Below, in pieces: positions 25,135 through 62,247 of a stretch of 64,000 nt of DNA. Location: the NCBI RefSeq assembly GCF_000003815.2, contig NC_049985.1, forward strand, positions 10,723,601 through 10,787,600. Reading direction: 5' to 3'. The notes under the pieces are model-generated. The model was not told the origin of the DNA and did not search any database. It saw only the letters and a list, made by a program, of their open reading frames with translations. Each line of letters starts with the position of its first letter. Position 1 is the first letter of the stretch. The stretch is from Branchiostoma floridae. Taxonomy: Eukaryota; Chordata; Leptocardii; Amphioxiformes; Branchiostomatidae. The translations under genes were made by a program, and so were the position numbers.

Positions 25135-25140
25135 GTTCAC

Positions 25141-27618: not shown

Positions 27619-27629
27619 TTGAGATATGA

Positions 27630-29520: not shown

Positions 29521-29563
29521 AATCAAACGAGATCTCGATGTAGTTGGCGTTAATTTGAAGACG

Positions 29564-32500: not shown

Positions 32501-35500
32501 CAAAGACACGTCCCTTTTGCCTTCCTGTTTATCTGTGAAAAAACAGCAATAGTGGTTTAGTGAGTGTAGAGATTGAGTTGTATTTGAATACTGCTCACCT
32601 GAATGTCATAAACGTAGATAGAATAGTGTACAGTATGTATATACAAAAACACGGTAAGAACACTCAGAGGCAGTTGGCCAAACAGGGTACCACGTCGTAA
32701 TTATTGTTGTGTTACCCATGGTAAAGAAAGAATCTACTGCAAAATAGGTCAGGACCATCGTCGTTGCACAATAATCAGAGAACAGCAACAGCCTGATCTA
32801 AAATGTATGTTGAAAATAAGAAAGTATATTGGGTGTTTGTTTGTGACCTATTACTGTTCATCATCTCATAGTCGTAAAGCCAGGCTGTGTAAACCAATAG
32901 AAAAATTTAATTCCTAGTATCTATACAGTTATAACGGCAGTGTCAGTTTAAAGCGGCTTTATGGCAATATCGTTAAATAATGGTATGCCTTTCTGTCAAT
33001 GTTTGCGGTCACATAACGCCTGGTCAGTTACTTAATAGTATATAGACCCGCCGAATAAACTACTGAATGAGCGAAGCGCGGGTCATTACCGCCTCACACT
33101 CACCGACTTGTGGCGGGACCAGGACAGCCAGCACCGCGCAGCAGCAGAACATCAGACCCCCCACCGTGAAGAACGGCAGTTTGAACCCGCCAAGCTACTC
33201 ACCAGGGCCGTGAACATAACATGACATCAACGTGCATGCCTGAAGTAAGGACCCGATTGTGACTGCACACTGAATTTTTCCATGAAATGTTTCGCGATCG
33301 AGTATGTCTACTGTAGAAATATCATTTCGTTTCTATGTATAGTGCCGATGTTCTCAATTTTATGTATCTTTTAACTATTCAGCGTAATTCGGTACTGCAA
33401 AATTATGTATCTAACGTTATGTATTGGACTGATTTTAATAAAGATAGACAAATAGATGACACAATACGTCACTTCCTTTGCAGTAAATACTTTCATATAC
33501 GTACGGTGATTACGGTATGAAACATGGAATGTACAGTTCATGTAGGTCATACGTACTACAACTAACACAACATGTTAGTATGGAAAAGAGTCCAAGCCCA
33601 TCAATAGAAATTGCCTGATTACTCACGTTGTACAGGACACCCCCGATGGGAGGAGCCGCCATCATGCCGAGTCCTACGAAAATCTCCTGGATCCCCTGTA
33701 TTGGCGAGTAATACTTTGACAAACGTTTTGGGAAAGTTTAATCTCTGTAAGCAATTAAAAAGCTCAAGCCCCTGTAACACATGCATAGCAGTCCACAACT
33801 TAACTCTCGACCACACCCCAACCAAACGGTGCCTGGTTTTTGGTATCCTTTTGATGTCGCTTGCTGTTTGTGAGTGTTAGTGTTCTGTAAACATAACGTT
33901 ACCCAGCCCGGGCCTCTATTTAACCGTTCCATTGTTTTATACCGAATACACAACCATGACTGTCCACGTCTCTCACATGTGTAAGAGCAAAAGGAAAAAT
34001 GCAAGAGCGAATGATTTACTAGTACATACCATGACTTTCGCTATGTCGTTGGGAAACTCGTGGGTCAGAATGGTTGTCGCTACAGTCAAGTGCGCGGAGA
34101 CACCCAGGGCTTCCATAGACCGAATGGCAAAGCAGAAGGCGATGAATGTTGTTCCTTCCGTGTACTCTAGGAGCCTGTAAGTTTGTAGATCCACATACAG
34201 CAAGCGGATAAGATTTAGCAGCAAACAATAGTCAAATCGACAAGAAGAACAATAACACATTCATAATCTTAGATATTCTTAAGCTGTTCACGCTTACCAA
34301 TTTTGTTCTACATCGGAGGGCTTCACTAAGATACCGGGCCGCGGGAAGATGTTAGTCCTGTGCTATAGTACATTTATTTTACTTTATATCCTCGCAGACG
34401 ACCAACAGTCTTACCCAAACAACAGCGAACAGCTCCCTGCCACAAACACGCCACTGATCAACACGAACCTCGACCCAACAGTTGTGATCTATGGATGAAA
34501 GAGGACACCCGTTTGACATGGAAAGATACTGGCAAGTTAAACGTTTATGTTCTTATAAAGAGGAAAGAGAGAGGCATAATCATCAACATCAATAGAGAGA
34601 AATGAAACTACGACATCATCATCTAAAGTCCATCCATCAGTAGGTACCCTAGTCACGTGGTGTAGTCATGTGCTTTTGAATTTTCGGTACGACCATTTGC
34701 CTATCAGGAGTAGGACAGGTACTCAAAAGTTACCAATGACTGTATAGGACGGGTACTCAAGATTTGTCAATGACCGTACAAGAAGGATACTCAAAATTTA
34801 CCAATGACTGTATGTATAGGACGGGTACTCAAAATTTGCCAATGACCGTACAGGACGGGTACTCAAAATTTGCCAAAGATCGTGTAGGACGGATACTCAC
34901 AAATTTGCCGAAGACCAGCCCTCCTAGAAACTGAACTGCACTGAAACATCCGAATACAAATCCTACTGTAGTCTGCGAGGCCCCTCGTCGTAAAGCCTGT
35001 GGCAACAATATTTAGACGGTTTGAACAGAGACTACGTCGTAAACATGACATTGCCCTGATTCGGATACATAGATACCCCGACTAGAGTTTGTCCCGTAGG
35101 TAATAAAATAGAAAGCTGCTGTCCTGTCAACCGATATTATAATCCTTTATTTGCATGCACATGTCAAAGGCAGCTCAATGCGGGTAAACAGTCTAGGTAA
35201 AGAATACATTTACCTTCTTTATGTACTTTGTACGTGGTACTGTTAAAATAAGTCACTAACTTGAGTACAGTCCCACATCTGTCCCAAAGCAAACAAAAAG
35301 CGGGTACGCCAAACAGTTACCCCGTTACCAATAAATATGGACAAGTGTTACTAGATTTAGGTTAGACCACGCCAGTATACAATGGCGGCCATGTGATTTG
35401 CGTTTTATAATGTTAGCAGGGTCCGTGTGCGAATACAGCACCTGACGTATATAATTACGTACCTCACTCGGAAAGAACGGCGTGATTATAGCGTAGCAGG

Positions 35501-35753: not shown

Positions 35754-38034
35754 TCCGTTGTGGAAGGCGTCCTGGGGTCTTGTACTTGCACTTTGTGCCT
35801 CCCTCGCTGCAGTGAGTACTAGACAAGTAATGATTTGATTCGATGCCAACAACTGTGTATCCTGCGACAAAACTGATTCTTTGATACATTTATTTTGTAG
35901 TAAAATTCAGCATCATCACAATATGGTAACGTTACATCAATTGTCAGATAACGGTGGATTGGCTTTCACTTCAGTATGGGGTTTTCTTGAACAAGTAGCA
36001 TCGTTTTACATCAATCAGATTCACGACATGTTCTTACCTGTCTGTTGTCACTTTATCTTTTGCTGGACATCACATAGCACGGGAATGATCGTGTCAATGT
36101 GAGGTACATCCTCTATTATTGGTTTTATATACATACAGCACAACAGCTCACAAAGACCACGAACCCTCCCACCGGCCGCTGTCCTCTCGGTGACCCCAAT
36201 GGTTTGTACGTCACAGTTGACATTTGACCCACAGACTGCAACCAAAGCAAGGTCGCACGGCTGTGGTCGCACGGTTATGTATCTTCTTCCCGACCACGAG
36301 ATCTATGTACCACTAAAACAAGTCATAACATGCATATGGTCAAAGCATAACTGTGCAGAACAAGAGACCTGAAGTTCTACTACAGTACAGAGGAAAGCCG
36401 CTATGTGGCCTAAGATCTCATAATCCATTCGATAAGACCTAACTGCCTACTGAATTCCATAATAACCTAGTAGCTTCTTTAGTCACGCTTTTCAAATTGA
36501 ACATGCTGTTCAACGGATTATGAACCTCGAGCTTTCGCTCTACCATATGTTTTTATTCCATATACATGTATCTGTAATTTATATATGTTGATAGGTTAAG
36601 CACTACACTGTACCACCATCTAGATAGACATTGTAAACTGAGAATGTTATTGTTATACAACTTCCTTGGTAATACTTTTGCGATGCTGGTATTTTAACAG
36701 TCAACCACGTAGCAATTAGCAAGTTACTTAGCGAGATATTTACACCTTCCGATTGATACTGATGTCCCCTGTTGAATTTAAACGGATTTGCCTCCTTTTG
36801 AAAAGATCGCGTGCACAAATCACGTTGCTGACATGTCGACATAGTTACTAGTAACTTTGCCACAGATGGGCACTCTCCTACACCTTGGCTACAGTTCGCT
36901 ACATTTCGCGCGGTGTCACAAAACTAATTCTTACTGTTGGAAGTTTTTTTAAAGGTGGCTACCATATGTAATATGACAAGTGACATAGTAACAGTCAGGT
37001 ATAGACATCAAGTTTCAAGTCTATCGGTTGCGAGCTTCTGCGTTCAAGCGATGGATGCCAAGCGGTACGTTTTCACATTTTCTTTGTTTTCTGGTATCCA
37101 CAAATTTCAATCTAAATTTAGAATTGAGAATCTACGAACAAACGAGATTATGAGACTGACACAAGTTGGTTTGGTTCGAAAGTCAAGTACAGTTTTGTCA
37201 TGGTCGACATATTTGCATTTTCTTCTCATTGAACAAATGCAAGCATTTCCAGTTGTGTGAATGCATCAATACTACGTAAACAGGAACACAGGCAAAATAG
37301 AAAATAAGGCACATTCAAAGTTCCAGTTATGCAATGATCTGACATGATTCGATGCCGACAAGAAGGTGTATTCTGCAACACAATCGATTCTTTGATAATA
37401 AAATTCAACATCATGAATATATGGTACATTCTCAAATCACACTGGACAAGCTTTCACTTTAGCATGAGATTTTCTTTATACAGGTAGCATCAATATATAT
37501 CTTATTTTACATCCTGAAATAAGAATGATCCCATTCACGATTTGCACAAACAGACAGTCTTTTAGATATGCTACGCTGGGGACCTTACAAAATCCTTAGG
37601 CCCATTAGCCACTGCCAGTGAGAAAACTGTATAACACAAACATGCTTTCCAAAGACCCAGGTACACAGTACGTCATGCTGGGAGCGTCTGGCTCTCTTCA
37701 TCGGTTGATACCACACGGCGATCACTGTAAAGATATAGAATAAATGAATATCACTATAGAGAATTTGTGATTCACCCAACAACGAAAACTGCAGGTAGAC
37801 CGACAGAAATAAACGGACACAAAAATTATCTCTTGATCAGGTATCCAGGCAATAAATTTGCGATTTAAAAATATAACGTCTCCTATGTGTATCGTTCTTG
37901 CCGGATATGGCGTCTTCATGCTGTCACATTCTACCAGACACTGTAAAGTTATCAAACATATATAAGTGACGGTTAGCTTTGAAATTCGTGCAGTGACATT
38001 TATTAGACTTAACAGTGATTTATTCTAACGACAT
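35754..38034. other. Spacer between genes D and E
   Basis: Promoter side of D and 3' flank of E. Three stretches are duplicated elsewhere. 36130-36280 resembles the palindrome core at 46800-47110 (ACAGCTC, CCCTCCCACCG, GACCGCTGTC-like). 36290-36440 reappears inverted at 54759-54960. About 37000-37910 reappears directly at 24800-26205 and inverted at 54130-54480. No CRE palindrome is seen upstream of D, unlike B, C, E and F. No coding exon recognised. Confidence 0.5.
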
Positions 38035-41000
38035 CTATAACATGGCGATTTGAGGACGCCTTACATACCGCGTGGGACTGAGGCAGCCATCATAGATGTA
38101 GAAAACCAGTAAGACAACTATCTGCAAATGAACGGGCGGGGTTTAAGTGTTTATTGTACCAACGGAAACAGCCGTAGAAAGGAGCAATAACGACCAGTGT
38201 TTAACGATAACCACTGGAATTCCAGCATATTTGAAATATATGTACATTGTGACTGGTAAATCGGTAGGTTTCAATGTTTCGGTCCCTGTTGACTGCATGT
38301 ACCATACCCTGTCTCAGTGATTTAGCTGTAGGTGCATATTCCTAATGATACATGTAACGTATATAAATGTAAAGATAGCAACATAAGTCACCAGACATCA
38401 GTTAACACAAAAAGCCAAGCGTTTGGCCTTTACATCTGTCTATTTGTCGTCGTGCTATGGTATCTAGATACATACATAGAACAGGACCAGGCCTCCAAAT
38501 GCTGTAGAAGTCCACGGGAAGTCGAACCGTTCCGTCAAAGCACTGCCTACCAACGGGCCTAGCAGATTCCTGTAATACATCAGTCAACTGTGTCAGAGAA
38601 TAAAGTGTGCAAATCCGATTTCCACTTGAGGCTGCAGTGACCGTTGAGCGATCATTGATTGACAGATCGCTAAACGAACTGTAACGAAAGAAAAACGTTT
38701 TCTTCAGGTTTTGTGTTTATCTATTAGTTGTCTTTTGAATCATACTTCTGCGCCGTGCATCATATTCCAATAATAAAATCAAGGATCACAAAATCAATTT
38801 TGGTCTATCAGCGATTGTTGTCTATAGATCCAGTGGCGCTACAAGCATATTTCAGACGGACTGGAGTTTCAAAACAATTTGTACGCATGTATAATATACT
38901 TAGATCTTCACACGTCCTTCGTTTCTGCCATCTTCAACAATGATTTAACGTCATAATCACATAACAAAATGTTTGTGGAGAAAATTCTCAAAAAGTTTCA
39001 ATATTAAAAAACGTAAAGTGCTTTTGAAATGAAATTTTTTTTATCACGTAGAGCTTTCTTTCAAGATAAAATCAATTGTCTACTGTGTCCAAATTAGTAA
39101 CAGATAGTGAAGCCATAGACAGGATGGTACGCAGTTAATTCTAAGTCAAATAACAGGTACTTAATAAGCAACTAGATATGATTTTGGAATCATATCCAGT
39201 CGCTTGAGTAATTATTATTTGCAAAGTCATTATCTGGATGACGGATGACCAACCTCATCGACGTAGTTGATTTTAGGTTTACATAGTTGTTTTCAGAAAG
39301 ATATTTTTCATTTCACTTCATTCACAGAACCATGTTGCCGTAACTGTGAAAGATGTATGTTGAAAGATTGTTCTAGAAATAGGTGAGATTCACAATTATA
39401 TCAAGGGAATGACATACCCGATGGCGAAGAAGGCGTTCATCACGCCCGATACCAGGCCATATAAGGCAAAGTTGTTCTCCATGCCTGCGTCACTGGTAAG
39501 AAAAGAAATCACCATGTTATGCCTTCCATTCATTTGAGGTGTCAGTTTTAACTCTAGAAAGATATGACGCAACCAATAAAAATTAGACCTTACCTGGCCG
39601 CCCAAAGCATCATGTTGACGATTGGTGTCATGACCGCTCCACACGATGCCGCGATAACTACCAGGGCAATAATGTTTACCCATAGTTTCCTGAAACAGAA
39701 ATAGTCAATTTCACCAAAAAGTTCCGCATATTCCACAAGATCACCCCGGGGCCTCCTTATTCCTTCAGCTTTGCCCCCCTCCCCCGACTTCCACTTCGCC
39801 CCCGCTGTAAATCAGCTTTGCCCCTCGCCCTTCTGCTTTGCCCCCAATGGATGCCGTCAACCCGGATGGTGGAAAGCAAACCAGTAGGGCGGGGGCAAGC
39901 AGAATTACACCGGGGGCAAACAGGAACCACGGGGGCAAAGCTGATTTACAGCGAGGGCGAAGGGAAAGTGTGGGGGCAAAGCTGAAGGAGTTAGGTGGAG
40001 GTGGCAAACAAAGAATGAATAAATGTAGTTTCTTGGGTAGAACCCTACCTTGGTAAAATGTGGGCGTAGTCTGTAAGGAGGGGTGATGGTCCAAGCAGGA
40101 GAGTTCCGACCATGGTCCCCGCCATTCCTAACGTTACCATAACGGGGACACATTTCTGAAAACAAGAAGAAGAAAATAAATAACGATCTACCTATCCAGG
40201 ATGAGTATGGAACTTGTATATTCAGATTCAACTCTTACTCATCAAGCTAAAAGGGCAATCATGGGTAACAGATGTACAGTTCTATACACGAGGGTTTACC
40301 TTTTTGTCGGCCAGCCAACCACATCCCGGCGCCAGAATTGCGTAGACAGCCGCCCACAGCAGATATATCAGGCCGATATGGACAGGGGACGTTTTGAACT
40401 GTAAAAAACATTCAACACACATTGTGCCAAATACCCATTATAGAAAAATTCAACTCCCAATTTGTTTGACTTCAGAATAATCTTGAACACGTGTCTGGCA
40501 CGCAATGACTATTGATGCAAGTAAACATAGAAGCTACCTCTTTGATCAAGTACGGCTGAAGTACTGGATCCATATAGTCCAGCATACAGGCTACCACAAC
40601 GGTCAAACCACCTACAGAAACGTGCAAACGTATTTGATATAGATGTGTAAAAGACATAAAGTGGTGTGAAAAAAACCTAAGGCTGAAACAATACATAACA
40701 CTAAAACTGCCTCTCTCAATTACGTCGTCACATTTTGGTACATGGTGACGGTGAAGTTTTCGATAGAAATTAATGATAAAACAAATGCAGCATTGAATGG
40801 GATTATTCTCCACAGTATTACTGTAAATAAAGATACAACTATACTTTATGATTTCCATGGTTATGTACCGCCAATCTATCTGTAAGACAACCAGACCAGG
40901 GGATTATACTTACAGGCTACAAGAACAGCTGGAATCTTGAAGAAGAACAGTAATGGCACGTCGGTTTTCCCCTCCTGCTCATCTGTACATGTACAATACA

Positions 41001-44000
41001 GTAGTACATTAGGTATACACGGGAAGAGGTCGATGCCTCTGCACAAGCTCTTTATGTAAATCGGCGCGCATGAAAAAGCCATGTTTATAACGAATAAGGA
41101 AATAAATGTATCTGCAACAGCAAGTACGGACAGATCCGCGTTTTGGCGTAATTTCTGTCGGGGTACATATATAATTGGTGGAAGTGGAGATTACATGCTG
41201 TAATTGAGTACTATTTATGCCAAAAAGTTGCGTTTTTTTATATTTTTAATTACTTGCAGTATTGGTGTTAACGTTGAATTGTCAGGGTGACTTTTTTCTA
41301 GCGATATGACAGATAGTGCCTTCATTATTTAATAACCCGGTGGTACTGAATTGAATTCAAAGCGTGAGTAGTAATCCATGACGTACGGTACGGCAACCAT
41401 GGAACTATACACTAGAAACAGGATGACGAACGTTAGTTGTCTGTATTCAAACTTGAAGATGGTGTCGCTAGCTTGCCAAGGGTAACACGTTCAAAACAGG
41501 TTTTGCTATCGCGAACATATAATTCCCTATCGTTAACCTGTAACTACTACTTTTCTATTCTTACGATTAAGTTCAGTAAACCACTACTCTCCAAGCGTAC
41601 GCGTGACCTTTTCAGCCTCCCCACCAACTGATCGAAAAAGACAGCATATAAGGAAAAGGTCACGATTTTCCCCACCAACCTCTGCTTGAAGACCATGGCA
41701 TATTCGGTGTTTATGTTTTCTAGACTTCCCAGTATGTTAATTACCTGGCTGAGGTGGGATCAGGACAGTTACAAACACACAGCAACACAGCAGTAGGAGC
41801 CCCATTGTTATAAACGGGGTCTTGAAGCCCCCAAGCTGTAGACAAACAAGCAACAGGTACACAACTTTTATAAGTCCGATTACACTCAAATAAAGTCAAG
41901 TTCAGTCAAGCATTCTACTCACTTAACCCATAAATTGATGATCGTTCCTGAGTACTTACATCGTACAACACACCACCAATGGGCGGACCGGTCATCAGTC
42001 CAAGGCCTGAGAAAATCTCGAGGCTTCCCTGTTAGAAAGAAAATAGATAGTTTTCTGAACAAATTGGTAAATATGTGTTGGATATGAATTCAGTATTTTT
42101 CAGGCATAACATCGAGGTCTACACAATTTTTTCAGAGATCACCGTCCAGTGGACAAGGGGTTAAGAAGGGAAGAACTGCCTACCATGACTGTTCCCACTT
42201 TGTTTGGGAAGGCATGGGTGAGAATGGCCGTACCAGCGGTTTGGAAGCCAGCTACACCGAGGGCCTCTATAGACCGGATCGTGAAGCAAAACACCATAAA
42301 TGTCGTCCCTTCCGTGTACTCCAAAAGGCTGGAAACGGAAAAGGACAGTTGCTATAAGGCAGACATGCAATCTGGCACACCAAAGTAACTTTTGATTCAG
42401 CTTGACATCGTAAGAAATGAATTCCCGAGTGCCTATTACTCCAAGCCAAGGTTGTCGGACCCGAAGTTAGCGGCCAAGGAACCCTCCTAAAGACCTGGCG
42501 CGGTTGTCAAATAAAACAAAATTGGTAAATCGGTATTTTCTCAGACTTACCCAAACAACACAGAACAACTCCCCGACACAAACACACCACTGGTCAGCAG
42601 GAACCTGGACCCGATGGACGTGATCTGGTCGGTCAAAAGTTTAGAAAATTAAAGAAATAAAATGTAAGAAACAGATACTTAACGACATTTATTGGAATGT
42701 AAGAGACAAAGAATTATCCGTTCTGTCGAATCTTATCCTCCCTTTAGGCAAAATATTTGTTTTCAAAAATCGTAAGCATTCCATGAATTTGTCTGCTTTC
42801 ATATCCTATGTTTCATACTTTTATAAATTAGAAAAAAAACATAGCAATCCGGCAAGGCAAACTGCATAAACGCAGGGGGAAGTGGGGAAACTTAAATAAA
42901 TTATTTTCTGTTAGCACCATATCTTAAATAAATGTATAGTAATATTGTTGAATGAATATGGGCAAAGGGGTTTAGGACTAACGTTAACTGTTGTTACTGG
43001 TTTTTGATTTTATTTCGTGGTTTTTACATGTGCTTTGTTAACGTATTTGTAGCTGCCATGCTTTCTTTTTGTTGTTTGTTTTGCAAAAAGTAATAAAGAA
43101 TGATTGAAAAAAAATAATTATCCGTATGATATTTGGTGCTTCAACAGCCGATCACGATATACATAAGTTAATCTACTAAAATGTATTTTATCGAAAATAC
43201 AATTAGAAACCAAATATTTAGTTGTTCATTATATATACTAGCCATGTCACTATCCTAAGGGTGAGATGTCCAATGTATATTCATAAGTATGGCCAATACT
43301 CACGTATTTTCCGAATACTAGATTCCCAAAGAAGTTGACAACAGCAAAACATCCGAATATGAGTCCCACCACAATCTGCGGTACCCCTCTTTTTAGAGCC
43401 TGCGAAGACATGAAAGATGCCAAAACTTATATTAACTTGAAAGTTCATCTGTGTTGGTAGAAGTCATTCTTGAAATAGAGCTTTACAACCATCCCTGAAT
43501 AGAGACGGTGGGCACCGTAGACTTCCCGCAACCTATATTCCACTGCTCACTGAGTCACGTGTTCTATCTGTATAACGTGACGTCACGACAGCAGTGGATT
43601 GTTCATTCCTTGACAAAGACTTATGCTGTGTAGTCGAAAATTTGGGTGAGCCCAATTTTTGTGTTGGAAATTACAGTTAAACTATTTCAACAAAACTTAT
43701 ATTATTGAATTGTTCACAAGGGGGTATTTGTGTAGTTGTGTCTGTATACTCTAAACCTATATACCTAACGTTACTTAACTCCCATACAGCAAGCACTGCA
43801 TAGAGAATGTCACTGCGAACCAAGGACTTTCTAGATACCTCATTGCCATTTGGGTGAATTGATTTTGCTGACAGTATTTGTTTTTTTTACTCGTTCAATA
43901 TTTGCAAAGATTTTCCTTGTACAAACTCAGTTAAAAAGATGAAAACATAAAGTACAATGTCCTGCTTATTAGAATTTGATATAACGTTATGTTTATGTAG

Positions 44001-44354
44001 TGCTAGTTCGTGATGGTGGGAACATGCAGAATTAGCAGTAACTAGGTTACTTACCTCGTTCGGAAAGAACGGAGCTATAACAGAATAGTAACAGGCTCCA
44101 CAAAAGTTCAGTAAGGCGATGCTGATGAAGGATAAAATCTGTCTTTTTGATGCTCTCCTTAAACTGAAGCCCTCCTCCTCTGTAGAAGTCTCTGTGTTAT
44201 TAGCGACTTCTTCCGTGTGTTCGTCCGTCACACTGCCATACGTCACAACATCCGGGACACTGTCTGTCTCGAGCTGTACATGTCTTGAGGCGTTTTGTGC
44301 CGCATGATCAAGCAAGCGCGAGGTCTCGCTGTCGTCTTTCTCGGCTTTCTTCAT
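38035..44354 (-). CDS. SLC18B1-like MFS transporter, copy E
   Basis: Complete 14-exon gene, about 491 aa. Exons (minus): 44055-44354, 43304-43399, 42551-42624, 42184-42328, 41960-42028, 41745-41835, 40914-40982, 40538-40611, 40300-40398, 40049-40155, 39594-39689, 39418-39492, 38476-38569, 38035-38121. The N-terminus is MKKAEKDDSETSRLLD, with an acidic dileucine. Domain motifs: APFFPNE, SIGSRF, FPNKVGTVM, TGPPIGGVLYD, YMDPVLQPYL, GWLADKK, PSPLLTDY, SDAGMENNFALYGLVSG, GPLVGSAL. The last exon continues past the usual end to ..SPTRYVRRPQIAML and TAG, and no STEEE exon exists. E and F are sister copies, clearly separate from A-D. In family terms it should move amines or polyamines across an organelle membrane. 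A divergent promoter region is shared with F. Confidence 0.9.
39794..39962. mobile_element. GC-rich foldback element in intron 10 of gene E
   Basis: Arms CTTCGCCCCCGCTGTAAATC and the inverse GATTTACAGCGAGGGCGAAG enclose a GGGGGCAAA-rich interior. A related element lies in intron 10 of gene F (52018-52207), so it predates the E/F duplication. Confidence 0.55.
41596..41685. mobile_element. GCAGAGGTTGG-type foldback element in intron 6 of gene E
   Basis: Right arm ends CCACCAACCTCTGC and the left arm is partly lost. Same family as 50116-50243 in the matching intron of gene F. Contains GCATATAAGGAAAAGGTCAC in both. Confidence 0.55.
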
Positions 44355-44408
44355 TTCTGTAATCTTCTTGTGGGTGAATATAACTAATGTTGGCCCGTGT
44401 GTACTTTA

Positions 44409-44416
44409 TGACGTCA
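44409..44416. promoter_or_regulatory. CRE palindrome TGACGTCA upstream of gene E
   Basis: About 55 bp upstream of the start codon, in the context GTACTTTATGACGTCACAAC, which is mirrored upstream of gene F. Candidate ATF/CREB site in the divergent promoter region. Confidence 0.5.
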
Positions 44417-45575
44417 CAACTCACAAGCCTGTAAGTGTAAGAGTAACAGGTGTTATAACGTTAGGGTTAAGAAGTTCTGCACAACTGCACAGCTACAGGT
44501 GTCTGTATTCAACGGACTTACGATTTATAGCACCATTTATTGTATGGTAACAACAAACACTGTTGGCTTACGACAACATAGTGGGCCTGCAAGTTTTTTT
44601 TCTCTCTGCTGAATTCTTCAACGTTAACGTTGCCGGTAAGTTTAACTGGCCGCTTCACCTCCACGTGACCTACGTTTTAACGTTAAAACATATTTGGTAT
44701 TACTGATACTATCAGGCCTGATTTCATGCAAGCGTTGTTGACACATTATTCCTAATCGTTTGTAGTACATGCCGGTACACGCGGGGACATCATATCCACT
44801 TGTTTATGTGACATTAAAGTTCTGTATCTGTATCTATCTGTATCTGTATCTAAATTTTATATAGCCGGTATAACCGCCGTTCGGCGTAACAGTACTAACA
44901 CACCAGATTCGCAGGCATGCGGCGGCAGCAGCTGGTTATATTACACCGAACGACTCATTACACCTAACTTTTGCACATCTATCTGCAAGCGTTCTTTAAA
45001 ACCACCCAGAGAAGCGAAGATGCCCCTACTGTACTTGGTGATAACAAATTCCACTCTAGTTCTGGGAAAGTACGAATTTTTGAACACATCAATCCTAGGT
45101 TGGTAACTCTGGTATTTGAAGGCATGACTGTTTCTTGTTCTTTTTTGAGCTGGTATTAGATACTTATCAGTTGGTACGTCCACCAGATTGTACATCTAAT
45201 TACCTCCTTGCTGCTTAGAAGTCGAATGTAACGCCAGATTGTCCAAATGTCACAGTGTAACACCCACGATCGCAAGCATCGTCACTCGTAGTCGTAACTT
45301 CACAAGATCGTACGCGACAACCACCTTCAGCATAGCTTGCGATCACCACAAAACTACCACATGTTCAAGTACTTATCAGTGGCCTGAACTCTGACCTGAC
45401 CCAACAGTGTGACAGATTCCAGTCGACTCGTTGATGTTGGTCACCTGGTCGGGTCACCTACCCCGAAGAAGAAGGAGACAAATCCACGACATGTTCTTAC
45501 CTGTCTGCCGCGCTGCACAGCACATAGGACGGGAATGATCGTGTCATTATGAGGTACATCCTCTATGACGAGCGA
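44417..45575. other. Left part of the E/F divergent spacer
   Basis: Non-coding. 44417-44580 is the mirror image of 47890-47995 (TAAGAGTAACAGGTGTTA and its inverse). A short (TCTGTA)n-like repeat runs near 44820-44852. GTTTTAACGTTAAAACA palindromes occur near 44675, with a mirror copy near 47725. No exon recognised. Confidence 0.45.
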
Positions 45576-46768
45576 GGCTATTGACACACCCAGTGTGTCA
45601 ATAGCCTAAACAGGCTATTGACACACTCAGTGTGTCAATAGCCTAAACAGGCTATTGGCACACTCAGTGTGCCAATAGCCTGTCAGGCTATTGACACACT
45701 CAGTGCACAATTTTTTTTAAATTTTGACACTAGAAACCACGAAAATGAGAAAATCTTACGATTATATTTGACAGTCAACACTCTGAAAATACAAATGGCA
45801 TTCTGTGCCCATCATCAACCCAAAATACGATCTTTTTCACGTGTTTACGGTATAGGCCGCATGTAGCCAGTCACAAGTATGCAAATGAGCTAACTATATT
45901 TAGTACCATGCAAACACCGCATGTGACCATGTTGGAACACGTTTTCAGCTGTGTTTGCCGACGAATTCATGCCGTTAGGGAGAATTTGCGGCCTCAAAAC
46001 TGATATCACAAGTGAAGCGAAGTTATAGTTGTTGTTTTACTTTCATTATTTTTTAAGTGAAAGAACTTTGTAGCGTCATATCGAGATCAACCGATATGTT
46101 TGGATGACATAGCGGCGGGGAAGTCCGCGCCGCTTCGACGGCGTGAATTTTGAGCAAAAATACCGCAGAATTATGGTTAGAAAAACCCACATTTTATTAT
46201 TTCAGGGTTCTCTGGTCTAAGTGTACCGTCCAAAATAAGAACGTAGCGGGTGGATTCTGCGGCTGAAAATAAAAATAAACGTTAACTGTTAACTAAACAT
46301 GCACTCTTGAAAATGCAGACCAAAAAGTCCCAAAGGTGGGTTTTCATGGTTCTGGTCGCATGACGAAAATATTCTTATATCAAATGGATGTTATAAAAAG
46401 GTAAAAGGACAATTGAAAAAAAAAAACTTTCACACGGTGGATTCGAACCGAGGTCGGCAGTTTCGCGATTCAACGCGCTAACCACTATGCCATGCTAACA
46501 TTCACAATACAGACATTTATTAACAGGTATTCAAATGTAGGGCATAACTTGAATACGTCCGTTAATATTCCAAGATTCAAAGATTCTAATGTCTAATCCT
46601 CCGAAAAATGTCTAATCAACTGTTAATTATGTGAAAAGTTTGTAATGAGACGAGAGCCTGGCAAAATAATGTCGGGAAAGGCATGTTACAAGCTCTGATT
46701 GGCTGGCTGGAATCTCGGTGTGTCAATAGCCTGTTTAGGCTATGGACACACTCAGTGTGTCAATAGCC
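45576..46768. mobile_element. 1.2-kb element with multi-palindromic ends between E and F
   Basis: Both ends consist of repeated palindromes GGCTATTGACACAC..GTGTGTCAATAGCC, joined by TAAACA or TGTTTA. There are about four units on the left (45576-45700) and about two on the right (46717-46768), giving inverted termini. The mirror position in the F arm lacks it, which explains why the E side of the spacer is about 1.2 kb longer. It contains a tRNA-like Pol III block. No transposase was recognised. It is perhaps a foldback or terminal-palindrome DNA transposon. Confidence 0.62.
46430..46498 (-). ncRNA. tRNA-like Pol III promoter sequence inside the palindromic element
   Basis: On the minus strand an A-box (TGGCATAGTGGTTAG) and an exact B-box (GGTTCGAATCC) are spaced as in a tRNA, and a run of T follows the 3' end. 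The T-stem does not pair properly (CTCGG against CCACC) and the anticodon arm is poor. It is therefore more likely a tRNA-derived SINE head or tRNA pseudogene than a working tRNA. Confidence 0.42.
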
Positions 46769-46800
46769 ACAGCGCTCTATTAATGCTTTTATATATACAT

Positions 46801-47110
46801 ACATCGGCATTGTATTGCACAACAGCTCGCAACCCTCCCACCGACCGCTGTCTTCGACTAATCGTGGTGACCTCAATGGTAAATGGTACGTCAGTTGACC
46901 TTTGACTTACATACGGCAACCGAAGCAAGGTAGCACGACTGTGGTCGCACGCCATTGACTGTGGTACCACAGCCGCGCAACCTTGCGCTGATGCCGTCTG
47001 TAGGTCAAAGGTCAAATGTGACGTCAAACCCTTGAGGTCACCGTGAGGACAGCAGTCGGTGTGGTGGGAGGGTTGCGAGCTGTTGTGCAATACGAATGCC
47101 GACGTATATA
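46801..47110. repeat. Core of the E/F inverted duplication (palindrome centre near 46955)
   Basis: GGCATTGTATTGCACAACAG..CGCAACCCTCCCACCGAC on the left is mirrored by GTCGGTGTGGTGGGAGGG..CTGTTGTGCAATACGAATGCC on the right. The arms continue with GACCTTTGAC/GTCAAAGGTC and meet around GACTGTGGTACCACAGC. It joins the E and F promoter regions. A 187-codon open frame on the minus strand across it is an artefact of the palindrome. Confidence 0.75.
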
Positions 47111-47995
47111 TATAAAACCAATAATAGAGACTATACCTCAATATGTATGAGACGATCCGTTTCCTTTCCGTCATATGCACTGTGCAGCAGAAGATAACAC
47201 AGCAGACAGGTAAGGAACATGCCGTGGATTTGTCGTGCGATCTGAAGTTTAATGAGTGACGATGCGTGTCTAGGATGTGTGTGGCGATATCGTGGGTACG
47301 GCAGACAGACAGCACGTTTATACTTACAGGTCAATGACCTCAGGTGTCCTGAATAGCCCATCCCTCATGACATCATCACGTTTCATTTCAAAGCAGATGT
47401 TTGGCTTCATAGATCATGTTTTTACGTCGTTTATTGATTATTGTACTGAACGTGTGGTGAAGTCTGTATTGGGCTGGATGGGAGTGAGCGCTTCTAGTAA
47501 CTTAGAAGGACGGCGAATTGATAGACAGTTGTCCTATACGCCCTGCACTTGATACATGTATCAGTATCTTGATTGATAAAACTAGTTTGTGAACAGCGAC
47601 ACATCCGGGCGTTACACTGTGACATTTGGGCAACCTGGCCTTACGTTCGACTGACGAAATACGAAGAGTTTGTCAATCGTTAACGCTTACCGATGAAATC
47701 AGACCTGATAGTGATATCAAATAATGTTTTAACGTTAAAACGTGCTATGTAGAGTTGAACTTGAAGCGAATAAGTAAACGACAACGATTAGCTTAACGTT
47801 GAATGATTCAGCGGACAAAACAAACAAACATGTAGACCTACTATGTTGTCGTAAATCAACAGTGTTCGTTGTTACAATACAATAAAGGGTGTTATAAATT
47901 GTAAGTCCATTGACTACAGACATGTAGCTGTGTAGTTCTACAGAACGTTGACCCTAACGTTGTAACACCTGTTACTCTTACAGGCGTGAGAGTTG

Positions 47996-48003
47996 TGACG
48001 TCA
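47996..48003. promoter_or_regulatory. CRE palindrome TGACGTCA upstream of gene F
   Basis: Mirror copy of the site upstream of E (GTTGTGACGTCATAAAGTAC), about 55 bp before the start codon. It is kept in both arms although nearby sequence has diverged. Confidence 0.5.
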
Positions 48004-48057
48004 TAAAGTACACACAGACCAACATTAGTTATATTCACCCACAAGAAGATTACAGAA

Positions 48058-51000
48058 ATGAAGAAAGCCGAGAACGACGACAGCGAGACGTCGCGCTTGC
48101 TTGATGCACAAAACGGCTCAAGACATGTTCAGCTCGAGACAGACAGTGTCCCGGATGTTGTGACGTATGGAAGTGTGACGGACGAACACACGGAAGAAGT
48201 CGCTAATAACACAGAGACTTCTACAGAGGAGGAGGGCTTCAGTCTAAGGAGAGCATCGAAAAGACAGATTTTATCCTTCGTCTCCATCGCCTTACTGAAC
48301 TTTTCAGGATTCTGTTACTATTCTGTAATAGCTCCGTTCTTTCCGAACGAGGTAAGTGTCGTAGTTGTTGCTAATTGTACATGTTCCTACCACCACGAAT
48401 AACTAGTACTATACAACCATAACGTTATATCATATTCAAAGCAGGACATTATACATTATGTTTTACTGAGTGTGAACAGTAAAAATGTTTGAAAATCTTG
48501 AACGAGTAAAAAACAAATACTGTCAGCAAAATTAGTTCACCCAAATGGCAATCAGGTATCTAGAAAGTCACCGTGTTGTTCGCCGTGATATTCTCTTTGC
48601 AGTGCTTGCTGTATGGGAGTTAAGTAACGTTAGGTATAGGTTTAGAGTTTACAGCCACAACAGCACAGTATACCCCTTTGTGAACAATTCAATAATATAT
48701 GTTCGTTATCTTTCATGTCTTTACAGGCTATAAAACGAGGGGTATCGCAGACCGTGGTGGGATTCATATTCGGATGTTTTGCTGTTGTCAACTTCTTTGC
48801 GAATCTAGTATTCGGAAAATACGTGAGTATTGACAATACTCCTGACAGACAAATCACCCTTAGGATAGTGCCATGGCCACTATATAAGCTTCTATTTGAA
48901 TTTTGGATAAAAACGTGGCCCATTTTTAAATGACATAGTCATTTATATCGCGATCGGCTGTGGAAGCAACAAATATACAAATAATTCTTTGTTGTTTACA
49001 TTCCAAAAAAATGTCAATTTAGCCAACCGTAAAATCTTAAGTGTCATTTTCTGACATTTTATTGTCAATTTCTTTAATTTTTCCAATTTTTCACTGACCA
49101 GATCACGGCCATCGGGTCCAGGTTCCTGCTGACCAGTGGTGTGTTTGTGGCGGGGAGTTGTTCTGTGTTGTTTGGGTAAGTCTGAAAAAATAGGCACTCG
49201 GGAGTTCATTTCAAGCTGAATCAAATATTACCTTGGTGTGCCAGATTGCATGTCTGCCTTGTAACAACTGTCGCCTTTCGTTTCCAGGCTTTTGGAGTAC
49301 ACGGAAGGGACGACATTTATGGTGTTTTGCTTCACGATCCGGTCTATAGAGGCCCTCGGTGTAGCTGGCTTCCAAACCGCTGGTACGGCCATTCTCACCC
49401 ATGCCTTCCCAAACAAGGTGGCAACAGTCATGGTAGGCAGTAACGTTCTTCCCTTTTTAACCCCTTGTCCTCTGGACGGCAGTCTCTGAAAGAAAATGTG
49501 TAGACCTCGAGCTCGATTTCATAACTGGAAGGCATTGAATTCATTTCCAAGACATATTTACCCATTTGTTCAGAAAACTATGATCTGTTTTCTTTCAGGG
49601 AAGCCTCGAGATTTTCACAGGCCTTGGACTGATGGCCGGTCCGCCCATTGGTGGTGTGTTGTACGATGTAAGTACTCAGGAACGATCATCAATTTTTGGG
49701 TTAAGCAAGAAGAATGCTTGAAAGTAAAAACCTCCCTTTTCTAAGTGTATTCTCTGTGTTGTTTATAGAATTCAGTTCATTAACAGTTCATATGAAAGAA
49801 AACGCCCAACAGTTTTAATTGCATTACCTGTAATCCTATCAAAGCAGCAACATCAGGAAATAGTTTTACATCAGCATTTGACTTGACTGAACTTGACTTT
49901 ATTTGAGTGTAATCGGACTTATAAAAGTTGTGTACCTGTTGCTTGTTATTTGTCTACAGCTTGGGGGCTTCAAGACCCCGTTTATAACAATGGGGCTCCT
50001 ACTGCTGTGTTGCTGTGTGTTTGTAACTGTCCTGATCCCACCTCAGCCAGGTAATTAACATACTGGGAAGTCTAGAAAACAAAAACCAAGTATGCCATGG
50101 TGCACTACTCTCCGAGCAGAGGTTGGTGGGGAAAATGGTGACCTTTTCCTTATATGCCGTCTTTTTTTATCAGTTTGTGTGGAGTCTGATTGACAAAGAC
50201 GGCATATAAGGAAAAGGTCACGATTTTCCTCACCAACCTCTGCGAGCAACGGTTTACTGAACTTAATCGTGAGAATGAAAAATGTCATTGTTAAAGGTTA
50301 ACGATAGGGAATTACAAGTTCGCGATAGCAAAACCTGTTTTGAACTTGTGACCATTCAATGGCGGGCGTCACCATCTTCAAGTTTGAATACAGACAACTA
50401 ACGTTCGTCATCCTGTTTCAAGTGTATAGTTCCATGGTTGCCGTACCGTACGTCATGGATTACTACTCAACGCTTAGAATTCAATTCAGTACCACCGGGT
50501 TACTGAATGATGAAGGCTCTATCAGTCAGATCGCTACGAAAAAGTCACCCTGACAATTCAACTTCAACACCAAGACTGCAAATGATTGAAAGATATAAGA
50601 ACACAACTTTTTTTTACATAAATAATACTCAATTACAGCATGTAATCTTCCATACCACCAATTATGTCACCTGATGACAAATTTCCCCCGACAAAATTAA
50701 ACCAAAACGCGAGTCTGTCCTTATTTGTTGTTGCAGATATTTATTTCTAGTTACATTTCCTTATTCGTTATAAACATAGCTCTTTCCGCATGCGCTCAGA
50801 ATTATACAAAGAGCTCGTGCAGAGGCATTGACCTATTCCCGTGTATATCCCGTGTATTATACAGATGAACAGGAGGGAAAAACCGACATGCCATTGCTGG
50901 TCTTCTTCAAGCTTCCAGGTTTCCTTATAGCCTGTAAGTATGCGCCCCTGGCCTGATTGTCTGACAGATAGATTGTTGATAACCATGGAAATCATGCATG

Positions 51001-53882
51001 TAGTTGTATGTTTATATACATCAACATTGTAGAGAAATGTATGGTCAAATGAATTAATGAATTTCTGTCAAAAACTTCACCGTCACCAAGATGTAATAAT
51101 CTGCATATGTACTAAGTTTGATACTTGTTTTAGTAATAAGGATGATAAGTTTGTTTATTCTTTTTTTTGCCATACATTGTACCGTGTACGATCGTTGCGC
51201 AATAAAGTTCTTCTTCTGTAATGACTTTATTGACGGCAGTTTTATATAGTCCCTATTGTGATGTGTTGCTTCAACATACTATTAGGCTTTCTTGCACCAC
51301 TTTGTGCCTTTCACGCATCTAATAATTATGTCTGCACGTTTCTGTAGGTGGTTTGGCCGTTGTGGTAGCCTGTATGCTGGACTATATGGATCCAGTACTT
51401 CAGCCGTACTTGATCAAAGAGGTATAGATCCTATTTTTACTTGCTTCAATAGTCATTGCCAAATACGTATTCAATATTATTGAGTATAAGATCACATTGG
51501 GAGCCGGATTTTACTGTAATCGTTATTAGGCTATATGTGTGCTGAATGGTTTTTACAGTTCAACACGTCCCCTGTCCACATCGGCCTGCTGTTTCTGCTG
51601 TGGGCGGCTGTCTACGCAGTTCTAGCGCCGGGATGGGGGTGGCTGGCCGACAAAAAGGTAAACACTCGAGCTCGTCAATAGAACGTTTCAATGTTACTCA
51701 TGGTTTCCTGCCTTTTTTTGAACTTGATGGGTAAGAGTTGAACATGAAAATACAAGTTCTATACTCATGCTAGACAGGTTATTCATTTTCTTCATGTTGT
51801 TTCCAGAAATGTGTCCCCGTTATGGTAACGTTAGGAATGCTGGTGGCGGCGGTCGGAACTCTCCTGCTTGGACCATCACCCCTCCTGACAGACTACCTCC
51901 ACATTTTACCAAGGTAGCGCTCTACCCAAGAAGCTACACTTATTCATTCTTTGTTTACCATCTCCACCTGACTCATTCAGCTTTGTCCCTACTCCTTTAG
52001 CTTTACCCCCGCACTTCCCCTTCGCCCCTCTTTGCCCTCGGTGTAATTCTGCTTGCCTTCGCCCCCGCTGTAAATCAGCTTGCCCCTCGCCCTTCTGCTT
52101 TGCCGCCAATGGCCGCTGTCAACCCGAATGGTGGAAAGCCAACCAGTAGGGCTGGGGCAAGCGGAATTACATCGGGGGCAAAGAGGAACCACGGGGAGCA
52201 AAGCTGAAGAATCATTTTCTTTAATGTGGATCTAGTGGAATACGCGGAACTTTTTGGTGAAATGGACAATTCCTTTTTCAGGAAACTATGGGTAAACATT
52301 ATTGCCCTGGTAGTGATCGCGGCATCGTGTGGGGCGCTCATTACACCCATCGTCAACATGATGCTTTGGGCGGCCAGGTATGGTGTCATTTTTATTGGTT
52401 GTTACCTCCATAAAATGTCATGGAATGGAGGTTATATTTTCTGTTATGTGTCTCTGTCTGTGTAGATGATTACTCAAGAACGGCTGGATGGATTGGTTTC
52501 ATACTTGTTGTGTTGGTGGGGTGTGATGTTAAAGCTCGAATCGATGAGATCTTGGGAGCTGTATCTGGCCAAATAGGGGCAAATAAGTTACCATTGGATT
52601 TCATCAGTCTGTCTTTTTTAGCTTATCCAGCTATCACGGTCAGTTCACTCCTAGGCCAATTAACTCCTACTAGACTTTTATTCGTAACTTGGCCAAAGTC
52701 CCTTAATTGTTACTATTCTGCCAGGCCGGAGTCTGGTAGAGACTAGGCATAACATGGTAATTTCTTTTCTTACCAGTGACGCAGGCATGGAGAACAACTT
52801 TGCCTTGTATGGCGTGGTATCGGGCGTGATGAACGCCTTCTTTTCCATTGGGTAAGTGATTTTCTTCGTCGTTTGGTGAATCCAAAACTCACGTATTTCC
52901 AGAATGATTATTTAGTATGGTTCTGTCAAGCCAGACAAACATCTATGTAAACGCAAAATCTACTACGATAAGCCAAATAATAGTTGCTAGAGCAACTATG
53001 AATCCAAAATAATATCCAATTGATTGAGTAACCATAATTTTGCTTAAAGTTAATTGTCTACCGTGTACTCTTTGGTGAGACCAACAGGCAACAGGTCATG
53101 ACATCATTTATATGACGTCACGACGTGTTACGGTGATCGACCAAAATTGACATTGTGTGACCCTTGCTTTTACAATTCTAAATGGGAATATGGTGCACGA
53201 CGATATACAACATGTAAAAGAATGATTTAAAAGACGACTAAACATGCATAACGTGAAAAAAAGCTTTCTTTCGTTGAAGTTCGTTGAGCGAACTGTCATA
53301 TGATTGGTCACTCGGTAATCACAGACTCTAGTGGAAATGAGGTATGGTGTCATTCAATGTCAACTTCTCATTCTCTAACACAGTTGACTGATGCATTACA
53401 GGGATCTGCTAGGCCCACTGGCAAGCAGTGCTTTGGCGGATCGGTTTGGCTTCCCGTGGAGTTCCACAGCATTTGGAGGCCTGGTCCTGTTCTATGTATG
53501 TATCTAGATATTTGGACAAACAGACAAATATAAAGGCCAAACGCTTGACGTTTTACGTTAATCAATAGTTTGGTGACTTTATGTACGTTACATGTATCAT
53601 TAGAAACATGCGCCTTCAACGATATCACAGAGACATGGTATGGTACATTTAATCAATAAGGACCGAAACATTGAAACCTACCAATTATTGACAAGTTACC
53701 ATGTACCTATGTCAAATGTGCTGGATTTTCAGTGGTTATCGTTAACCACTGGTCGTTATTGTTCCTTTCTACTTTTGTTTCCGTGAGTAAAACAAACACT
53801 TTAAACCCCGCTCATTCCCTTGCAGATGCTTATAACAATGGCTTTTTACATCTACGATGGCTGCCTCACTCCTACACGGTAG
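48058..53882 (+). CDS. SLC18B1-like MFS transporter, copy F
   Basis: Complete 14-exon gene, about 479 aa. Exons: 48058-48351, 48727-48822, 49102-49175, 49288-49432, 49599-49667, 49960-50050, 50865-50933, 51348-51421, 51559-51657, 51807-51913, 52282-52377, 52777-52851, 53402-53495, 53826-53882. N-terminus MKKAENDDSETSRLLD with an acidic dileucine; then APFFPNE, AIGSRF, FPNKVATVM, AGPPIGGVLYD, GWGWLADKK (GCGWLADKK in E), PSPLLTDY and SDAGMENNFALYGVVSG. It ends ..DGCLTPTR with TAG directly after. Relative to E four bases (TATG) are missing at this point, which gives the earlier stop. It is the only complete transporter on the plus strand, divergent from E across a palindromic spacer. Same predicted function as E. 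Confidence 0.9.
50116..50243. mobile_element. GCAGAGGTTGG-type foldback element in intron 6 of gene F
   Basis: Nearly perfect inverted arms of about 50 bp, GCAGAGGTTGGTGGGGAAAA to TTTTCCTCACCAACCTCTGC, around a short loop. The same element is decayed in E, and a relative lies at 56933-57029. Likely a MITE. Confidence 0.68.
52018..52207. mobile_element. GC-rich foldback element in intron 10 of gene F
   Basis: CTTCGCCCC..CGCTGTAAATCAGC on the left and GGGGCAAAGAGG..AGCAAAGCTG on the right. Counterpart of 39794-39962 in gene E, less symmetrical. Confidence 0.5.
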
Positions 53883-54639
53883 GGCGCCTTCAAATTAACG
53901 TGTTATTAATGTGGATTGAATACGTCACTCTTAAGTCTAATAGATATGTAGCTACGTCTCTGTATGGACTTCAATGTGCAGTTATCTACGCCCGGTTAGG
54001 TTTAACCGTGTCTGGTAGAATGTGACATCATAAAGACGTCATATCTCAAGAGCAATACACATACATAGGGAACTTTATAATTGGATCGCAAATGCTTCAC
54101 CTCTACATGATTAGTGGATACCTGATGATCAGATTGTAGAGATAATTTCTATATATGTCCATTCATTTCTGTCGGTCCTCCTGTAGATTTCGGTGTCGGG
54201 TGATTCACAAATTCTGTGGTGAAGCAGGCATGAGTTCGACTTTAACCGTCCATTTATTCTATATATTTACAGTGATCGCCGTGTGGTATCAACCGATGGA
54301 GAGAGACAGACGCTACTAGCATGAAGTACCAGTACTGTGTACTTGGACAGCGTGCATATGTTCTGTGTTATACAGCCTCTCACTGCCAGGGGCCCAAGGA
54401 CTCTATAAGGTCCACAAACGTAACCCATCCAAAAGACTCGGTTTTATGTACATCCAAATATGAACGGAATGATTCTTAATTCAGGCAGTAAAATAACTAT
54501 TGATGGCAGAGTAAACACAAAAGGCCGGCTACAAGCTCTAGCAGCGAAATCTCAAATGGCAGCTAATCAGACAAAATGACTGAAGCAGGTCGGTGCCTAA
54601 GCACACTGGGCCGGGTAAAGCACCCCAAAGCCGACCAGC
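53883..54639. other. 3' flank of gene F, mirror of the E 3' flank
   Basis: 54130-54480 matches 37500-37830 inverted (TTTACAGTGATCGCCGTGTG, GGTATCAACCGATG, TGTTATACAG..CTCACTGCCAG). It carries the 3' end of F and extends the inverted duplication beyond the genes. No exon recognised. Confidence 0.55.
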
Positions 54640-54757
54640 AGATAATGGTGACCAGGCTAGACTATTGTTTGCTGCTAAATTTTACCCCACTCATCCCCTT
54701 GCTGTATGTGGACCTACATACTTACAGGTTATTACAGTACATGGAAGGGTTATTATG
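54640..54757 (+). pseudogene. Intron 3/exon 4 fragment of a D-type SLC18B1-like gene
   Basis: AGACTATTGTTTGCTGCTAA, TGCTGTATGTGGACCTACAT and the acceptor ACTTACAG, followed by GTTATTACAGTACATGGAAG, match the end of intron 3 and the first about 20 nt of exon 4 in gene D and B. At 54759 the sequence switches to a mirror copy of the D upstream region (36290-36440). No other exon is near, so it is a relic produced by rearrangement. Confidence 0.6.
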
Positions 54758-56268
54758 GAATTCAGCAGGCAGTTAGGTCTTATCTTAGGCCCCCTAGCGG
54801 CTTTCCTCTGTACTGTAGCAGAACTTCAGAACTTTCCTATCTCTTGTTCTGGACCGTGATGCTTTGACCATATGCATGTTATGACTTGTTATAGACATTA
54901 TTTTTAGTGGTACATAGATCTCGTGGTCAGGAAGAAGTGACATTTGATACCTAAGATCAGCCGCTTGGTGTTTCAATCCTGCATTGGGAAAGCTTCACCA
55001 CTAAAAAACATAACTTTATGCATACTGTACACTGTACATACTAACGCTACCAAAAACATAACTGTATGATTGGTTTATTGAGTGAACTTAACCTTCTAAA
55101 CCTTCTTGGCGAAGGCAATAAGTAGGTCATTTAAAATAAGCCCATGCAGTTCCTTACGAAATCGCTAGATCAAAGCCTCAGTCTGTACCCGAAAGAGACC
55201 GTTAGGGGTCACCAGATGTATTTGACACGCGAGCCGTCGCACAACAGCATTGTACTGTTAGCTAACGAAGAACGCACTGTGCTTCGCCTCATTACAGGAC
55301 AGTCTGCTTTGTCTTGATCCCTTTTATGTGCCATGTGGTCTTATAAATGATCAGTGTTCAAGCCACACCCTTTGTCTATTTCAATAGTTTGATTGCGATC
55401 ACTCGTATTGTGGGGAAATATTTGTGAGCACTTGGGCTGGGTACATACACTAGGCAGGTGGGTATGTATGTACAGAGGCATACTCACATACTAACCCGTT
55501 ACGCCCACAAAATCGATGTTTAAGGTGTGAAAACAATATAGTTACAAACAATGCTAAACACTAAGGTGTTCGAAGGTGTTCATGGATAAGATTTTCGCCT
55601 TCTTCAAGATGAATGTTCTATGATTACTACCATTACCAACGCAGATTCAATGTATATACTAGTTTGTACTTTGTACATTCCTGTGACCCTATAGTACGAC
55701 GATGCACGTCCTGCACGTGATGGCATTCAAGCTAAATCACTCCCGCGTACTACGGTGTGCACGTGTGTAAGGTGTGTGTATCACGTGAATGATTTACTAC
55801 CCTAGCCTCCAAGGTATCTACTTGTATATGAATGTTATCTTTTTTTCATCGCTACTATGCATGTTTCAACTGCTCTGTGAAGACAGTAGCAGCACCCAGA
55901 AAATTGTACATAACTATAGCAGAAACAGCAACTGCTAAAAGCCGTGCTCAAAGACTACTATGGAGGCTATCATAATCTATTATGTAATCCGCTAAAACGT
56001 TTCAAATCCACGCCTTCTTTAATTCTAAAAGGAAATGTACATGTAAGCATTTCTTTAAAAATGTTTGTGAAGTTTGTTATACCTACAAGAGGATACGTAA
56101 TTTCGTCACGTAGTGTAGCAAAACAAATCATGATCAGTGTCACATTGGACAAGGAAGTCACCGAAAGGTGTCTAGTAAATAATTAACCCAGTCCAGTTGG
56201 AGCGCCAGTTCTAGTAGGCGTGGTAAGTAGACAGTTTGTTAGTTCAGTCTGACACTCCTACAAGAAAC
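54758..56268. other. Spacer before the alkaline phosphatase region
   Basis: Up to about 54960 it mirrors 36290-36440 (CTAGCGGCTTTCCTCTGTAC, CATATGCATGTTATGACTTG, CATAGATCTCGTGGTC), the outer limit of the inverted duplication that I can follow. From there to 56268 I see no coding exon. CACGTGA and GCACGTGTG E-box-like motifs occur near 55760-55785. Confidence 0.45.

Positions 56269-62206: not shown

Positions 62207-62247
<41 letters not shown>

Follow-up and report, generated by a model that had tools for sequence, protein, structure and literature searches.

How does one unit of a tandem gene array come to lie inverted beside its neighbor, and what becomes of the two copies afterwards? The question is raised by a stretch of 64,000 nucleotides from Branchiostoma floridae (NC_049985.1, positions 10,723,601 to 10,787,600; hereafter the window, numbered from its first letter), which holds six SLC18B1-like genes, A to E on the minus strand and F on the plus strand. 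The initial annotation described E and F as mirror copies within a large inverted duplication. The duplication is real, and the two genes stand head-to-head and are transcribed outward from each other. We consider it very probable that an SLC18B1-family tandem array gained one inverted unit, yielding mirror copies E and F joined at their promoter ends, and that the copies then diverged.

Table 1. Coordinates of genes, arms and sequence features in the window.
Feature	Position	Strand	Remarks
Gene A	7064-663	-	spliced model by homology
Gene B	14346-7938	-	spliced model by homology
Gene C	24221-15951	-	spliced model by homology
Gene D	35753-29564	-	B/C-type coding region within E/F-type unit
Gene E	44354-37673	-	spliced ORF, 15 coding exons, 497 aa, SLC18B1-like
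Gene F	48058-54324	+	15 coding exons, 495 aa, SLC18B1-like
Left arm (E unit)	36277-46951	-	inverted homology to 46958-54943; limits from matches to D-side block and outer element
Right arm (F unit)	46958-54943	+	inverted homology to left arm; limits likewise
Inverted match	37502-38813/54496-53131	minus-strand	E-value 0.0 as printed
Inverted match	39570-40703/52401-51254	minus-strand	E-value 0.0 as printed
Inverted match	40743-41910/51088-49882	minus-strand	E-value 0.0 as printed
Inverted match	41906-42437/49721-49189	minus-strand	E-value 0.0 as printed
Inverted match	43694-44736/48703-47682	minus-strand	E-value 0.0 as printed
Outer mirrored element, left	36283-36467		159/168 ungapped columns identical to right copy
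Outer mirrored element, right	54746-54938		ungapped match to left copy
Palindromic core	46775-47129		two head-to-head copies of promoter-like block
14-bp perfect palindrome CTGTGGTACCACAG	46959-46972		at axis
Predicted TATA box of E, TATATAAAA	46787-46795	-	sequence pattern
Predicted TATA box of F, TATATAAAA	47109-47117	+	sequence pattern
TATATAAAA upstream of D	36123-36131	-	block common to D, E, F
Predicted exon 0 donor, F	47203-47214	+	12-mer CAGACAG/GTAAG
Predicted exon 0 donor, E	45496-45507	-	same 12-mer
Predicted exon 0 donor, D	36033-36044	-	same 12-mer
DR1-like site AGGTCAAAGGTCA, F half	47002-47014	+	exact
DR1-like site AAGTCAAAGGTCA, E half	46896-46908	-	mirrored, 1 mismatch
TGACGTCA before E ATG	44409-44416		55 bp upstream
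TGACGTCA before F ATG	47996-48003		55 bp upstream
Inserted element, 1208 bp	45567-46774		terminal repeats palindromic; separates TATA box of E from its predicted start
Homogenised-looking tract, E side	41710-41916	-	intron 5 - exon 6 - intron 6; 205 aligned columns, zero substitutions
Homogenised-looking tract, F side	49711-50083	+	holds 165-bp F-only stretch
Intron 6 foldback, F	50116-50243		84% self-inverted
Intron 10 foldback core, E	39794-39944		compared with 52057-52207
Intron 10 foldback core, F	52057-52207		compared with 39794-39944
3' relic of third E/F-type unit behind D	24823-29522	-	split exon 14; exon 15 at 25835-25886; 3' flank to 24823

An array of SLC18B1-like genes

Each of the six genes has 15 coding exons and is spliced at GT-AG introns, and its only stop codon is the terminal one. 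The exons of E and F were defined by reading splice sites. Those of A to D were located as AG- and GT-bounded segments homologous to these two genes, and manual placement then settled exon 1 of A and, for B, C and D, exons 14-15. Pfam and structure searches were run on E and F, with A to D assigned through their homology to these two. Both E and F carry the MFS_1 domain of the major facilitator superfamily (PF07690; 2e-47 for E and 6.8e-41 for F). Among solved structures, which the comparison covered, their closest relative is human SLC18B1 (the vesicular polyamine transporter, VPAT; entry 9d7u), matched over about 400 residues in each protein (1.1e-74 for F, 5e-70 for E). Entries for the vesicular monoamine transporter (VMAT) come next at about 1e-14 to 1e-15 (the best being 8.8e-15 for F and 1e-15 for E), and within this set both proteins are nearer SLC18B1 than VMAT or VAChT. 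Judged by sequence, E and F are intact members of the SLC18B1 family of vesicular polyamine transporters, polyamines being the putative substrate.

At the C terminus, a predicted acidic dileucine is present in A, C, D and F, replaced by TLPA in E and missing in B. The TLLA of F is TLPA both in E (37673-37724) and in the relic behind D (25835-25886). A change in sorting is possible for the TLPA forms and for the loss in B. Elsewhere in the window, an alkaline phosphatase gene lies at 60342-63421 on the plus strand, with PF00245 in all five ORF pieces searched; ARAGORN found no tRNA genes, and no Rfam family was found at gathering score.

The mirror and its arms

Comparison of the window with its reverse complement reveals a diagonal of inverted identity through the exons, introns and flanks of E and F, and this identity extends past the exons as in a long inverted repeat (Table 1). 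A global alignment of the arms gives 87.0% identity over 6374 aligned columns and 85.0% over the 4886 non-coding ones, figures that are upper estimates because gaps are uncounted and long gaps cheap; with gaps counted, the main BLAST blocks range from 72% to 88%. Segment by segment, identity over aligned columns is 75-100% in the coding exons and 77-97% in the introns; all 14 introns can be aligned, six of them at 77-83%. Exon lengths, said to be the same in both genes, agree in 14 of 15 cases, the exception being exon 1 (300 nt in E versus 294 nt in F).

The arms had been estimated at 8-9 kb, a figure that we revise: they are unequal, with 10.7 kb on the left (46951 to 36277) and 8.0 kb on the right (46958 to 54943). 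Much of the excess on the left comes from the 1208-bp insertion and other E-only stretches. The mirroring of 37500-37830 and 54130-54480 is correct, but these segments do not lie outside the genes as proposed, since they contain the last coding exon (37673-37724 and 54273-54324); with exon 15 inside, an intergenic mirror is ruled out here. Further out, the pair reported at 36290-36440 and 54759-54960 was recovered with slightly different limits (Table 1). It is 94.6% identical without gaps and 76.5% in BLAST over 213 columns with gaps. Because the ungapped value exceeds those of nearby introns 13 and 14 (84% and 82%), this outer element may not belong to the arm but represent a repeat of its own. 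At 54658-54748, in the 3' flank of F, lies a fragment of a B-type gene that covers parts of intron 3 and exon 4. It is 87% identical to B across 91 bp and 80% to D across 89 bp, and stops within a few bases of the start of the outer element.

Foldbacks had been claimed at matching positions in introns 6 and 10 of both genes. The intron 10 foldback does occur in both copies, whereas in intron 6 a self-inverted foldback was found in F only; its partner region in E yields a mirrored alignment of 111 columns at 83%, and a 58-bp piece matches un-mirrored at 93%. The intron 10 cores of E and F agree better un-mirrored (93%, 140/150) than mirrored (78%, 94/120), and this core has therefore probably been flipped in one copy. 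Flipping raises the mirrored identity of intron 10 from 0.835 to 0.897; in intron 6 it brings no gain (0.879 to 0.872).

The axis and the unit ends

The palindromic core noted at 46801-47110 is borne out as an imperfect palindrome, 77% self-inverted, and both of its halves match the block upstream of D at 36016-36275. On the plus strand the axis reads CTGTGGT (46939-46945), CGCACGCCATTGA, and then the 14-bp perfect palindrome. The E-F mirror ends at 46945 and 46966, leaving 20 bp between, and the junction is contiguous; homology to the D block runs to 46951 in the E half and to 46958 in the F half. When the D, E and F blocks are aligned, their ends fall within a few bases of one another. At the far side of F, the outer end (54748-54943) shares homology with the first part of the E unit (36277-36467), which adjoins the D block, and the homology stops at about the start of that block. 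Unit ends match within a few bases at the D/E junction, at the axis and at the outer end of F. Thus, E and F each fill one unit, and their ends are those of the D/E tandem boundary.

Two promoter-like blocks, one of them split

Each end of the palindrome carries a predicted TATA box, one for E and one for F, facing outward with 313 bp between them; the two ATGs are 3.7 kb apart. The names TATA, DR1 and CRE rest on sequence patterns that resemble consensus motifs. Three of the seven occurrences of TATATAAAA in the window fall in the D, E and F blocks, CAGACAGGTAAG occurs exactly only at these three genes, and the same is true of the 12-mer that we read as a splice donor, which appears exactly three times. 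Together with possible splice acceptors, read from the sequence just upstream of the three start codons, this suggests that the block includes a short non-coding exon 0. Simple arithmetic, at about 31 bp past TATA, would put the start sites at 47140 for F, 36100 for D and 46764 for E. The DR1-like nuclear-receptor site has two mismatches in the D block, and two other one-mismatch sites occur in the window, at 24540 and 45385. We infer that the palindromic core comprises two head-to-head promoters, and a shared divergent promoter of E and F is possible.

The E promoter-like block is, however, split by the 1208-bp insertion, which begins 12 bp past the TATA box, ahead of the predicted start site. 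The insertion is flanked on both sides by a 6-bp target-site duplication, CTCTAT, and the corresponding empty sites are found at 36103-36120 (D) and 47120-47137 (F). Inverted repeats of 51 bp near its ends are 94% complementary, so that terminal inverted repeats and a target-site duplication, the marks of a transposable element, are both present; the outermost 6-9 bases show no such inverted match. The ends (45575-45705 and 46714-46768) contain repeated 33-bp near-perfect palindromes such as AGGCTATTGACACACTCAGTGTGTCAATAGCCT. Given this position, a transcript from this TATA box of E would start within the element; failing that, E uses another start or is silent. The insertion thus argues against a simple, equal co-regulation of E and F of the kind first envisaged. 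E need not rely on the disrupted copy, because a further minus-strand copy of TATATAAAA (44855-44863) precedes its ATG by about 500 bp. We found no significant difference in amino-acid rate between E and F, with E-unique versus F-unique changes of 20/11, 19/13, 18/14 and 15/8 for outgroups B, C, D and A, respectively (p 0.15-0.6), and thus nothing here points to decay of E.

A CRE mirrored in front of the two genes had also been proposed. The motif TGACGTCA does stand 55 bp upstream of both ATGs, but with acceptors placed by eye it probably belongs to the 5' leader rather than to a promoter. It occurs nine times in the window, against 1.0 expected under a first-order model, and lies at most 80 bp upstream of the ATG in four of the six genes: B (14385), C (24293), E (44409) and F (47996). 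Because the by-eye acceptors put the site in the 5' leader (E and F) or in an intron (C), a role in transcription, and with it the reading as a promoter CRE, is doubtful.

Divergence of the copies and a homogenised-looking tract

In both codon and protein trees, E groups with F and B with C and D, each with support of 100. The Nei-Gojobori estimates for E and F are dS 0.108 and dN 0.056, giving a dN/dS (w) of 0.52, a point estimate below 1. Synonymous divergence is 0.196-0.207 among B, C and D, 1.21-1.45 between E/F and these three, and 1.9-3.1 with A. Since the E-F value is the lowest, the inverted copy is by this measure the youngest whole-gene duplication in the window, with the proviso that gene conversion lowers dS.

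Gene conversion had been suggested to keep the arms alike. For the arms as a whole this does not hold: with 85% identity in aligned non-coding columns they lack the near-identity throughout of a gene-conversion palindrome, and they have not been homogenised. One local tract, spanning parts of introns 5 and 6 and the exon between, does look converted. It contains the longest substitution-free run of the alignment, 205 columns (with indels), against a maximum of 100 in 1000 column shuffles; in non-coding columns alone the longest run is 114, against a shuffle maximum of 78. A second run above the maximum, 128 columns in exon 4, may be mere constraint. Along the exons, dS is 0.021 in exons 3-6 versus 0.159 in exons 7-15, a split picked after the per-exon values were seen.

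Could selective constraint, rather than conversion, account for the low divergence of the tract? Coding exons are constrained, and the shuffles assume exchangeable sites. The tract nevertheless includes intron, and over the last 60 bp of intron 5, where E and F are identical at 57/57 positions, the B-C, B-D and C-D pairs reach only 75-86%, which makes constraint a poor explanation and, in our judgment, an improbable one. The first 60 bp of intron 6 are 94.5% identical between E and F and 78-82% in the B/C/D pairs. From these alignments, the tract looks re-homogenised by gene conversion. Elsewhere in the array, the exon 2 region of B and D (13657-13769 and 34888-35000) is 98% identical over 113 bp, and C and D reach 93.5% over 108 bp, whereas neighboring B-D blocks are at about 78-82%; the B/D region is a possible conversion tract.

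A mosaic gene D

The sequences of B and C are still alike past the stop codon, and D departs from them at 29517-29522, continuing as E/F-type sequence. Behind D lies the 3' relic of a third E/F-type unit, in which about 1.64 kb interrupts exon 14. Its pieces are somewhat closer to E than to F (84 versus 80%, 83 versus 75%, 76 versus 74%, and 75% versus no match). Upstream, D carries the E/F-type promoter block, and B and C match D only over the first 20-60 bp before the ATG. A third E/F-type unit thus encloses a coding region of B/C type, a mosaic that would most simply have arisen by ectopic gene conversion or recombination.

Origin of the inverted unit

Very probably, the tandem array gained one unit in inverted orientation, leaving the E and F units joined by their promoter ends, and we suggest that the copy arose through fold-back or template-switch duplication rather than inversion of a tandem copy. 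The arms then diverged, by private insertions and by about 15% in non-coding sequence; one exon-intron tract looks re-homogenised through gene conversion. Entry of the 1208-bp element into the E arm would have changed or silenced that E promoter and reduced the symmetry of the palindrome.

Two other accounts of the arrangement have to be weighed. Inverted joins are a known assembly artefact, and F might be an allele or technical copy of E, a second haplotype or a chimeric read having been joined backwards. Between the arms, however, 6.5% of coding columns and 15% of the aligned non-coding ones are different, and each arm has private stretches, one of them with a target-site duplication; for these reasons we judge an artefact very unlikely. 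The window, moreover, contains no N, and the two flanks differ: the far flank of E is the D unit, and past F lies other sequence with the alkaline phosphatase gene, in which one 99-bp match to the array is found at 57444-57537.

Alternatively, F may have begun as an ordinary tandem copy whose unit turned around in place at a later time; recombination between inverted repeats at the unit ends, either the outer 190-bp element or the promoter-like blocks, could have done this. A tandem array is present, the unit ends agree at the junctions, the outer element is inverted at both ends of the E-F block, and the present arrangement would look no different had an existing tandem copy been inverted. 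Such a history requires one more event, whose two breaks both fell at unit ends, and the short spacer and 14-bp axial palindrome fit a one-step fold-back at least equally well, although at such divergence this is not decisive. On balance we regard later inversion as a less likely course, and prefer the gain of a unit copied in inverted orientation.

More tentatively, and as a proposal that we hold to be doubtful, the fold-back could have made a divergent promoter in one step, with two TATA and DR1-like promoters back to back and 313 bp between their TATA boxes. The same promoter unit would drive D, whose coding region would be a B/C-type replacement, and the later insertion would have left F as an intact transcription unit and E as a rewired one while removing a destabilising symmetry.

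The locus offers a clear case of an inverted duplicate persisting in a gene array, one copy with a whole promoter-like block and the other with an insertion in it, and with arms that, one tract aside, are drifting apart. The blocks of D, E and F amount to a three-way natural experiment: chimeric, disrupted and intact.

Comparison with known systems

A mouse study describes Slc18b1 as a polyamine transporter (PMC6927659), and a coral study reports an Slc18b1-like gene going up under putrescine (PMC11461621). Unlike human SLC18B1, the family is represented in this array by six copies. Among the matches listed for SLC18B1 with tandem duplication, polyamine or amphioxus/lancelet expansion, no description of such an array appeared, an absence that is no proof.

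Five of the six genes here are parallel and the sixth is inverted. For vertebrate tandem pairs, one survey gives 72-94% parallel, with convergent and divergent pairs at 3-14% each, and regards opposite-strand pairs as long inverted repeats, tolerated after asymmetric changes have abolished the central symmetry (PMC2547482). E and F resemble the divergent tandem genes described there in being adjacent duplicates on opposite strands with a 1.2-kb insertion near the axis; the asymmetric change in that text is a deletion, whereas here it is an insertion. In Drosophila, tandem duplicates account for 94 (4.3%) of 2,199 divergent pairs whose start sites are no more than 1 kb apart (PMC2670823). The predicted TATA boxes of E and F, set outward at the spacing given above, would resemble those of such pairs, but the starts of E and F are predictions, and that of E is displaced by the insertion. 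The E/F locus fits these descriptions and is in kind a known minority form of tandem duplication.
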